The translations under genes and the position numbers were made by a program. Positions 28,833 through 35,920 of a stretch of DNA of 43,779 nt are shown piece by piece. The notes under the pieces were generated by a model. The model was not told where the DNA came from and did no database searches. It saw only the letters and a program-made list of their open reading frames with translations. This DNA is from Streptomyces sp. E2N166. Lineage in GTDB: Bacteria > Actinomycetota > Actinomycetes > Streptomycetales > Streptomycetaceae. Every line of letters begins with the position of its first letter. Positions within the stretch are counted from its first letter, which is position 1. The stretch spans positions 1 to 43,779 of the forward strand of contig NZ_RAIF01000025.1 of NCBI RefSeq assembly GCF_003671715.1. The letters are read 5' to 3'.

Positions 28833-28846
28833 GTTTCACGTGAAAC
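28833..28846. promoter_or_regulatory. parS: parS site (ParB box)
   Basis: GTTTCACGTGAAAC is a perfect match to the Streptomyces parS palindrome bound by ParB, which clusters around oriC and organises origin segregation into spores. It lies 24 bases after the prenyltransferase stop, outside coding sequence. Confidence 0.92.
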
Positions 28847-30544: not shown

Positions 30545-30587
30545 GTGCATGTGCCCACACCGCTCACAGGACGACCGAGGGGAAGCC

Positions 30588-31475
30588 ATGGACCACGCGG
30601 CAGCCGGCCCACCGGACGCACAGAGCACACCCGGCTGCTACCGCCACCCCGACCGGGAGACAGGCATCCGCTGCACCCGCTGCGAACGCCCCATCTGCAC
30701 GGACTGCATGGTCAACGCCTCCGTCGGCTTCCACTGCCCCGACTGCGCGAGCGGCCGCACCGGCGGCGGACCGGCCCCGGCCGCGTCCCGGCCGCGCACC
30801 CTGGCCGGAGGCACCGTCGCCGCCGACCCCCACCTCCTCACCAAGATCCTCATCGGGCTCAACGCGGCGGTCTTCATCGCCGTCCAGGCGCTGCCGTCGT
30901 CCTTCCTCAGCGACATGGTGCTCATCGGGCGATGGCCCCCCGCCCCCTTCGTCCCCACCGAAGGCGTCGCCGAGGGCGAGTGGTACCGCCTGGTGACCAC
31001 GATGTTCACCCACGAGGAAATCTGGCACATCGGCTTCAACATGCTCAGCCTCTGGTTCCTCGGAGGCCCTCTGGAAGCGGCCCTCGGCAGAGTTCGCTAC
31101 CTCACCCTCTACCTCGTCTCCGGCCTGGCCGGCAGCGCCCTCACCTACCTGCTGGCCTCGCCCACCACGGCCACCCTCGGTGCCTCCGGCGCGGTCTTCG
31201 GCCTTTTCGGCGCCACCGCCGCGCTCGTCCGCCGCCTCAACGCCGACATGCGGCCGATCGTCATCCTTTTGGTGATCAACCTGGTCTTCACCTTCACCTG
31301 GGCCAACATCGCCTGGCAGGCCCACGTCGGGGGCCTCGTCGCCGGCGCCGCGATCGGCTACGCGATGCTCCACGCCCCGCGCGAACGGCGGACGCTCGTG
31401 CAGTACGGCACCTGCGCGCTGGTCCTCGTGGCCGTCGTCGGCCTGACCCTGTTGAGAACCGCCCAGCTCACCTGA
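30588..31475 (+). CDS. Rhomboid intramembrane serine protease with an N-terminal zinc finger
   Basis: The 295-residue protein starts with a Cys/His-rich motif (CYRHPDRETGIRCTRCERPICTDC ends near residue 40; further C50 and C53 in GFHCPDC) like a B-box zinc finger. A Gly/Pro linker leads to a six-helix rhomboid domain. The catalytic dyad is Ser201 in GASGAVFG and His247 in AWQAHVGG; the HIGFNMLSLWFLGG segment is the typical rhomboid helix. The substrate is unknown. ATG 30588 has GAGGGGA five bases upstream, while an earlier ATG at 30549 has none. It is convergent with crgA, and the 230-base spacer between them holds a DnaA box cluster. Confidence 0.92.
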   Translation: MDHAAAGPPDAQSTPGCYRHPDRETGIRCTRCERPICTDCMVNASVGFHCPDCASGRTGGGPAPAASRPRTLAGGTVAADPHLLTKILIGLNAAVFIAVQALPSSFLSDMVLIGRWPPAPFVPTEGVAEGEWYRLVTTMFTHEEIWHIGFNMLSLWFLGGPLEAALGRVRYLTLYLVSGLAGSALTYLLASPTTATLGASGAVFGLFGATAALVRRLNADMRPIVILLVINLVFTFTWANIAWQAHVGGLVAGAAIGYAMLHAPRERRTLVQYGTCALVLVAVVGLTLLRTAQLT

Positions 31476-31482
31476 GCATGTG

Positions 31483-31694
31483 TTGTCCACAGCGGGTGGC
31501 GGATCTTGTGCACAGTGTGCGGGAACAGGTGTGCCCCCTGTAGCTGACTTGAGTTTCCGCAGGTCAGACAGGGGGCGAACGCGCTTTCGGTTGCCGGTAC
31601 TTCCGTCACACCGGCGTCAATGCCCAAGGGGTTATCCACAGATCGTCTTTCTTTTCCCCATGTGGATAACGCCTGTGGATAACTCCGTGGATAG
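31483..31694. other. DnaA box cluster outside oriC, with central hairpin
   Basis: Six DnaA-box-like 9-mers lie in 212 bases: TTGTCCACA (31483-31491), TTGTGCACA (31506-31514), TTATCCACA (31632-31640), and, on the minus strand, TTATCCACA twice (31661-31669, 31674-31682) and CTATCCACG (31686-31694). Between the two groups is a hairpin of 9 plus 5 bp with a 2-nt bulge (31533-31548 with 31563-31576). A pyrimidine-rich patch (31643-31660) lies between boxes. The site is in a convergent spacer, so it should not act as a promoter element. It may bind DnaA for titration or regulation; this is inference. Confidence 0.75.
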
Positions 31695-31706
31695 CCCTGG
31701 GGAGAG

Positions 31707-31961
31707 CTACTTCCACTGCGTCGAGACACCGAATCCCGCGGCGATGAAACCGAAGCCCACCACGATGTTCCAGTTGCCCAGCGCGTCGATGGGCAGTGAA
31801 CCGTCGGTGACGTAGAAGACGACGATCCAGGCGAGGCCGATGACGAACATGGCCAGCATGACGGGTGCCACCCAGCTGCGGCTGGTCAGCTTGATGCTGG
31901 TCGCCTGCTTCGACGGCGGCGGCGTGTAATCGGCCTTCTTGCGGATACGTGACTTCGGCAC
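31707..31961 (-). CDS. crgA: Cell division protein CrgA
   Basis: CrgA is a small membrane protein that, in Streptomyces, coordinates growth with septation by restraining FtsZ ring formation, and in mycobacteria links division and wall-synthesis proteins. The 84-residue product has a basic N-terminus ([16 protein letters not shown]), two membrane helices (about 31-52 and 64-80) with a short external loop ([15 protein letters not shown]), and ends STQWK. GTG 31961 follows GGAGAG by six bases. It is divergent from the DUF881 gene, and it lies opposite the rhomboid gene across the DnaA box cluster. Confidence 0.95.
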
Positions 31962-35667: not shown

Positions 35668-35920
35668 TCACGTCACTGCAGGACGGTCAGTGGTGCAGAC
35701 GCTGCAGTCGAGCGTGATGCTGTCGGAGCCGGTACTACGGTCCTGCCGAGGATGTGGGTGATGCGCTGGTCGATGCGGGCGTCGAGGGCAGTGGGGTCTG
35801 TCGGGAGCGGGTTGTCCACAGGCTGTGTGCGGGCGCACCTGACGTGCGACTTCGCTGTCGCGGAGGAGCATGGCGACGTTGAGGACGGCGCGGCGGGGGT
35901 ACAGCGCGAGAGAGCGCGAG
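35668..35920 (-). pseudogene. Degenerate small gene with two frame shifts
   Basis: On the minus strand coding character moves between frames. From ~35920 to ~35835 frame A reads LALYPRRAVLNVAMLLRDSE and on to ARQVR with high third-position G/C. From ~35830 to ~35745 frame B takes over, reading PTALDARIDQRITHILGRTV. From ~35740 to the TGA at 35668 frame A returns (SDSITLDCSVCTTD). One extra C near 35830 and a second indel near 35742 explain this. The PRRAVLNVAMLLRDSEVARQVR-type segment resembles part of a larger actinobacterial DNA-binding/antirepressor-like family (from memory). No intact start or Shine-Dalgarno site is visible. It contains one perfect DnaA box (35812-35820). Remnant or programmed double shift are both possible; decay is more likely. 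Confidence 0.55.

Follow-up and report, generated by a model that had tools for sequence, protein, structure and literature searches.

In the spacer between the convergent rhomboid-family and crgA genes of Streptomyces sp. E2N166, about 29 kb from oriC, we find a cluster of DnaA boxes accompanied by a palindrome-like site. Box clusters at this position are present in nearly all Streptomyces spacers analysed, in every locus investigated from other genera of the family (displaced in one of them) and in most loci of the wider class, where many copies also show a fixed spacing of the boxes. The DNA analysed comprises 43,779 nucleotides and is referred to as "the window" in the following. On balance, and judged from its sequence, we consider this element to be a control site that lies on the chromosome outside oriC and would bind DnaA so as to titrate or inactivate it, working together with a palindrome-binding protein.

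Results

DnaA boxes between the rhomboid gene and crgA

The features of the spacer and of the adjacent genes are compiled in Table 1. Besides the degenerate TTTTCCCCA, the spacer harbours four perfect and two weaker boxes. The six DnaA-box-like sites of the original prediction, three perfect TTATCCACA and one perfect TTGTCCACA among them, are thereby confirmed within 31483–31694, as is the convergence of the spacer, with the rhomboid gene ending at 31475 on the plus strand and crgA lying at 31707–31961 on the minus strand. The boxes match the high-affinity box TTGTCCACA of S. coelicolor and the box TTATCCACA of E. coli and B. subtilis (PMC4285127). With several boxes in non-coding DNA near oriC, the element matches, as far as its sequence goes, the DnaA-box clusters outside oriC of the Streptomyces and Bacillus type.

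Table 1. Features of the rhomboid-crgA spacer and its flanking genes in window coordinates. Conservation is the mean agreement with the window among aligned Streptomyces spacers.
Feature	Position	Strand	Remarks
ORF of the rhomboid family, convergent to crgA; position of the start codon uncertain	30549–31475	+	Pfam Rhomboid, E 1.1e-37
Convergent spacer between rhomboid gene and crgA, containing the whole element	31476–31706		231 bp, delimited by the ORFs; 58% GC vs 70% in the window
DnaA box TTGTCCACA, perfect, distal (rhomboid side)	31483–31491	+	Conservation 0.97
DnaA-box-like TTGTGCACA, one mismatch	31506–31514	+	Conservation 0.85
Bulged inverted repeat (hairpin)	31530–31575		DNA fold -13.7 kcal/mol, z -4.7; conservation 0.76, as for the spacer overall
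Palindrome-like site TCACACCGGCGTCA	31606–31619		Conservation 0.94, among the best-kept parts of the spacer
DnaA box TTATCCACA, perfect	31632–31640	+	Conservation 1.00
Degenerate DnaA box TTTTCCCCA, in pyrimidine-rich patch	31652–31660	+	Two mismatches; conservation 0.67
DnaA box TTATCCACA, perfect	31661–31669	-	Conservation 0.81
DnaA box TTATCCACA, perfect, 13 bp from the 31661 box	31674–31682	-	Conservation 0.99
Weak box CTATCCACG, two mismatches	31686–31694	-	Conservation 0.66 (spacer mean: 0.76)
crgA, septation protein of 84 amino acids	31707–31961	-	Pfam CrgA, E 2.4e-30

As had been anticipated, boxes of this kind are rare by chance. Throughout the 43.8-kb window 32 sites with at most one mismatch are present versus 5.1 expected, a number reached in none of 100 shuffles. 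Twelve of these near-matches fall into oriC (oriC-type boxes at 1865–2374, dnaA match at 648–1673) and five into the rhomboid-crgA spacer. Genome-wide (7.9 Mb), TTATCCACA occurs in 12 copies (reversed control: 1), three of which are found within 51 bp of spacer sequence, while TTGTCCACA occurs in 39 copies (reversed control: 10), one of them in the spacer. Judged by the rate in the remaining genome, a stretch of 231 bp should contain about 0.0014 perfect boxes versus the four present, corresponding to a Poisson P of about 1.5e-13 or, once multiplied by the genome length, of about 1e-6.

Two more perfect copies of TTGTCCACA are located beyond crgA at window positions 35812 and 38415, with no near-match up to 2 kb from either. 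The same genome contains a second cluster between the genes of prephenate dehydratase and seryl-tRNA synthetase (G000:C53:134991-135301; L138:4992-5310), which consists of three perfect and several weak boxes. Its plus- and minus-strand copies of TTATCCACA are 258 bp apart, a distance also observed in a further genome of the genus, G180 (C2:5355545 and 5355803). We assume that this second cluster corresponds to the published S. coelicolor cluster D78.

In most Streptomyces copies listed, GATC(G/T)TC comes after the perfect box at 31632; where this reads GATCTTC, the opposite strand reads AGATCTGTGGATAA. The six-mer AGATCT is a sequence to which E. coli DnaA binds (PMC4285127). A search for plasmid relatives of the spacer yielded no match.

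Conservation within Streptomyces

A match to crgA was obtained in 196 of 199 genomes of the genus, in all 150 genomes of the family and in 141 of 148 genomes of the class. The 156 crgA loci of the genus, 80 of which are those of the closest crgA relatives, yielded 143 distinct spacers after identical ones had been collapsed; a spacer length of 400 bp was used wherever no rhomboid stop codon was present within 700 bp. Of the distinct spacers, 137 contain three or four perfect boxes, five contain two and one contains none, i.e. at least two are found in 142 of 143. Altogether, these spacers contain 454 perfect boxes in 40,716 bp, compared to two in 677,473 bp of flanking DNA. The original prediction had made the conservation of the boxes among relatives one of its touchstones and, at the level of sequence, the conservation observed strongly supports a function.

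The arrangement of the boxes is similarly constant. Each of the 142 spacers with a rhomboid stop codon within 700 bp contains a convergent pair of perfect boxes within 80 bp, and 134 of them possess a perfect plus-strand box no more than 120 bp from this stop codon. In all 40 which have both the distal and the 31506-type box, the latter follows the former by 23 bp. The sole boxless spacer originates from locus L074, where a rhomboid-motif ORF is missing from the 3 kb beyond crgA.

Among 198 evenly drawn whole Streptomyces genomes, the box pair TTATCCACA-N20-50-TGTGGATAA is found in 188 and the reversed pattern in none. Among the places listed, the pair occupies a single place in nearly every genome, and those compared with the crgA matches lie beside crgA. 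As for the ten genomes devoid of this pattern, three (G032, G129 and G174, corresponding to loci L105, L207 and L208) keep the cluster at crgA with other spacing or with TTGTCCACA, and the other seven carry TTATCCACA at different spacings or places. Three of these seven (G102, G168 and G180) gave no match to crgA. G180, an 11-Mb genome 99% complete in two contigs, has neither a crgA match nor a convergent pair of the searched spacing and possibly represents a natural loss of both crgA and the box pair.

Position-wise conservation was calculated as the mean agreement with the window over 140 of the 143 spacers, those of at least 450 bp and that of L074 being excluded from the alignment; averaged over the spacer it amounts to 0.76. 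Since the boxes and the palindrome score high and the hairpin only reaches the spacer mean, the conserved design consists of boxes and palindrome without the hairpin. The hairpin and the pyrimidine-rich patch emphasised in the original prediction are both present, and the former indeed folds, yet neither stands as a conserved part in its own right: the position of TTTTCCCCA within the patch reads TT(A/G)TCCCCA in several relatives, which suggests a degenerate DnaA box. The bulged inverted repeat may perhaps act as terminator of both convergent genes; a simple scan of 31300–31900 revealed neither a terminator-like nor a sigma-70-like or other promoter-like site.

Occurrence in the family and the class

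In other genera of the family the cluster is present in 22 of 22 loci (16 genera), with at least two perfect boxes found directly in 20 and with L154 and L162 confirmed on inspection. In L162 the cluster is displaced to L162:3924-4154, about 670 bp beyond crgA, and the element can hence be separated from this gene.

For the class we used a cluster score by which the 150 bp following the crgA stop codon had to outscore more than 98% of the other 150-bp windows of the same locus, a threshold which is lenient where few other boxes exist: L227, L248 and L251 exceed it with one weak box each. The first set of 40 loci represents 37 families, with one locus per family and three additional ones, and includes up to 9 kb of DNA to either side. 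The cluster follows crgA in 33 of them, the misses belonging to families f3, f14, f25, f26, f32, f34 and f37. A hold-out of 60 previously unread loci from 18 families, all represented in the first set, contains the cluster in 55; it is missed in G472 (f25), G445 (f26), G413 (f29), G392 (f31) and G460 (f17). Fourteen further unread loci, initially omitted and then scored, include 12 from f25 and f26, families which had failed in the first set; here the cluster is present in nine and the fixed-spacing layout described below in six, with none of 910 control tiles showing the layout. All unread class loci taken together, the cluster is found in 64 of 74 and the layout in 40 of 74, compared to two of 4784 control tiles. 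For 15 loci read earlier in passing the respective numbers are 12 and nine. Of the 130 genomes in which crgA was matched in the class but outside the family, 129 were scored (all except G341). In total, 109 of these contain the cluster right after crgA and 75 the fixed-spacing layout.

Families f25 and f26 are mixed, the cluster being present in some members and absent from others. As 20 of the 129 class loci are without the cluster by score, several of them from these two families, it is not needed everywhere. Judged by its sequence conservation across such distances, the element is ancient.

Genomic neighbourhood

In 36 of the 40 first-set class loci at least 1.5 kb of sequence extend beyond crgA. 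A convergent rhomboid-motif ORF is present in 23 of these, all of which carry the cluster, versus six of the 13 in which such an ORF is missing. The cluster is therefore a feature of the rhomboid-crgA interval and has often disappeared where this interval is broken, which argues against a tie to crgA alone. The crgA neighbourhood, from which a coupling of origin firing to septation had been conjectured, is kept far beyond Streptomyces, but in the class it is the rhomboid-crgA pair that the cluster accompanies.

The gene dnaA was located in 41 genomes. With the starts of circular records wrapped, crgA is situated on the same contig at a distance of 12–131 kb in 40 of them; in G229 the two genes are on separate contigs. 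Four genomes of family f18 retain the cluster at a distance of 94–131 kb between crgA and dnaA. The window contains a perfect parS site, GTTTCACGTGAAAC, at 28833–28846, 2.8 kb from the element, which is its sole place with no more than two mismatches to parS.

Fixed spacing of the boxes and the associated palindrome

The commonest spacings in the first 40 class loci are 13 bp from plus to plus box (14 loci), 10 bp from plus to minus (15 loci) and 23 bp from plus to minus (19 loci); among 3067 control tiles, the first of these occurs in none and the second in one. A layout score shaped on these 40 loci (box, 13 bp, box, 10 bp, box or its mirror image, weak boxes allowed) was applied with a threshold of 20 out of 24 points. 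It is reached by 26 of the 40 loci versus none of 5504 control tiles and, in the hold-out, by 34 of 60 loci versus two of 3874 tiles. The hold-out loci of f17 have boxes in seven of eight cases and the fixed spacing in none of eight. When both strands of the window are scanned, this element is the sole place with a layout score of at least 18, its core spacing being 9 bp (10 bp in the class) and resting on the two-mismatch box whose conservation is 0.67. Such fixed spacing suggests a specific nucleoprotein complex beyond the needs of simple titration.

In many first-set class loci a palindrome near TNACACNNGTGTNA precedes the boxes. Counted from the palindrome start, the first box of a typical class locus is found at about 15 bp and the last at about 38 bp, with a middle box at about 28 bp if on the plus strand or about 25 bp if on the minus strand. 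A stricter palindrome consensus is matched at 9 or more of 12 positions in 26 of the 40 loci, compared to 155 of 3067 tiles. Among the 33 hold-out loci which have the layout together with a palindrome score of at least 8, the distance between palindrome and core amounts to 14–16 or 27–28 bp in 29. In the window, where the element is oriented opposite to crgA, the first plus-strand box following the palindrome is 26 bp away, about one helical turn beyond 15 bp, and the same distance is seen in 124 of 142 Streptomyces spacers.

The strict palindrome TNACRCNNGYGTNATT gave ten matches at eight places in 12 genomes, three of these places being at crgA (G393, G462 and G340). In 41 Streptomyces genomes TNACRCCGGYGTNA occurs at 0–7 places per genome (control: 0–3) and, among those listed, a place at crgA is found in many genomes. 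To judge from these matches, the palindrome seems to go with this locus rather than to belong to a large regulon, other places nevertheless existing. We regard TCACACCGGCGTCA as a candidate binding site for a dimeric protein. Three assignments were considered for it. The motif of MtrA is a direct repeat (PMC6265350), which speaks against this protein. The centre of the BldD consensus comprises one base compared to two in TCACACCGGCGTCA, and we regard BldD as a doubtful candidate. A parS site does not apply, as the one perfect parS of the window is located elsewhere.

Discussion

Possible function of the element

From these observations we infer that DnaA binds here, that initiation is affected negatively and that there is a protein which binds the palindrome. 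DnaA would load onto the convergent core (31632–31682) and onto the distal pair (31483–31514), and looping may join both groups of boxes. Owing to its distance of about 29 kb from oriC the element would be copied soon after initiation, whereupon the duplicated site would bind DnaA or aid its inactivation and thus delay re-initiation. A second, dimeric protein on the palindrome could set the timing of DnaA occupancy, taking the role which IHF and Fis have at datA and DARS2. S. coelicolor DnaA binds a single box weakly (PMC4285127), and the DnaA domain I dimer is reported to be conserved across Actinomycetes (PMC13270200). The convergent array might provide a natural seat for a DnaA dimer complex. 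A sink or inactivator is favoured because the clusters of S. coelicolor are cited as restraining and the loss of clusters in B. subtilis leads to early initiation. We count against this interpretation that many class loci contain weak boxes such as TTGTCCCCA alone, that 20 of the 129 class loci are without the cluster, that f17 retains boxes but not the fixed spacing, that the core of the window deviates in its spacing and includes a two-mismatch box, and that the fixed spacing exceeds what titration would require.

In a bolder form, which we put forward tentatively, the element would be an ancestral, class-wide control element and the actinobacterial counterpart of datA and DARS: a rigid nucleoprotein site made up of the palindrome and three or four boxes in a convergent array, served by a dedicated palindrome-binding protein, whose place in the rhomboid-crgA spacer would predate the divergence of the families of the class.

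Of the two roles named in the original prediction, titration or regulation near the origin is still the best reading, while reactivation of DnaA has become a lesser rival. According to the latter, DnaA-ADP molecules would occupy the convergent pair in head-to-head fashion as well as the tandem box and shed their ADP as at a DARS site, and the reactivated protein would promote initiation. The actinobacterial core indeed has the same topology as that of DARS, reading box(+) 10 box(-) 13 box(-) or the mirror image of this order. Its convergent spacing of 10 bp in the class and 9 bp in the window, however, differs from the 14 bp of DARS, a three-box topology of this kind arises easily by chance, and the functional result cited for the Streptomyces clusters is one of negative control (PMC5742627, PMC4585315). 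All in all, reactivation appears rather unlikely to us.

By its position, the element may possibly act locally, on either of the two flanking genes. DnaA bound behind crgA would then limit, for crgA or for the next gene, read-through, antisense transcription or mRNA stability, thereby linking replication to septation, in which CrgA (SCO3854 in S. coelicolor) functions (PMC4255298). The cluster following crgA in 109 of 129 class loci and its co-occurrence with the convergent rhomboid pair in 23 of 23 agree with such a role. We nevertheless judge it unlikely: crgA alone does not hold the cluster, as seen in the loci in which the rhomboid ORF is missing (6/13), the boxes of L162 are remote from crgA, no promoter-like site emerged from the scan of 31300–31900, and the anchoring at crgA is partly imposed by the method, in which this gene was used as bait for the loci.

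Still less probable is a structural site of the origin domain, at which DnaA and the palindrome protein would serve segregation, by organising or tethering the region around oriC, instead of controlling initiation. It could draw on the perfect parS site 2.8 kb away at 28833, on the distance between crgA and dnaA, which does not exceed 131 kb in 40 genomes, and on the three of eight strict-palindrome places (12 genomes) at crgA. Yet the palindrome has no assigned protein and, since parS sites are common near oriC, the nearness of one is a weak argument. A chance or base-composition artefact in a spacer of low constraint, which the reduced GC content of the spacer (58%) might have suggested, is refuted by conservation, by the fixed spacing and by the shuffle, flank, tile and hold-out controls, and we dismiss it.

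The control of initiation against double firing by DnaA seems much less settled in actinobacteria than in E. coli. If the element works as proposed, this control would be common to antibiotic producers and many of their relatives; the palindrome predicts a partner protein, and the neighbourhood of a septation gene bears on links between replication and division.

Comparison with known systems

In the open-licence literature we found no report of a crgA-linked DnaA-box element, of its class-wide layout or of the palindrome, which is weak evidence of absence; nor did the literature searched describe a counterpart of datA or DARS in actinobacteria outside Streptomyces. The S. coelicolor clusters of Smulczyk-Krawczyszyn et al. 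2006 are reportedly named H69, H24 and D78, with D78 being the strongest. Going by the cosmid name alone, we presume that crgA (SCO3854) may lie on cosmid H69 and that cluster H69 may be the present locus; if so, the Streptomyces site was already seen in 2006. A search of the open-licence literature for the cosmid name SCH69 returned unrelated papers alone.

The view that no equivalent had been described in Streptomyces has to be abandoned, as DnaA-box clusters near oriC are on record for S. coelicolor, and a repression of untimely initiation is ascribed to them (PMC5742627 and PMC4585315, citing Smulczyk-Krawczyszyn et al. 2006, J Bacteriol 188:6184). Like the present element, they are boxes clustered outside oriC in a Streptomyces chromosome. 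In B. subtilis, the loss of six clusters causes early initiation, the effect being strong only when all six are gone (PMC5295017). These clusters (Okumura et al. 2012) share the position outside oriC with our element, B. subtilis being, however, a member of another phylum.

E. coli datA is, as proposed for the present element, a non-coding box cluster which restrains re-initiation (PMC5742627). It requires IHF and acts via hydrolysis of DnaA-bound ATP. The cores of the E. coli DARS sites are composed of three boxes, of which box I is inverted relative to the other two (II and III), and their spacing is the same in DARS1 and DARS2 (PMC5742627). In K-12 DNA the interval from bioD to uvrB reads box(+) 14 box(-) 12 box(-), and a targeted search found the same spacing upstream of mutH. 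The present element shares with DARS1 and DARS2 a three-box core with one opposed box, for which the window makes use of a two-mismatch box, but its spacing differs from their 14 and 12 bp, being 10 and 13 bp in the class and 9 and 13 bp in the window.
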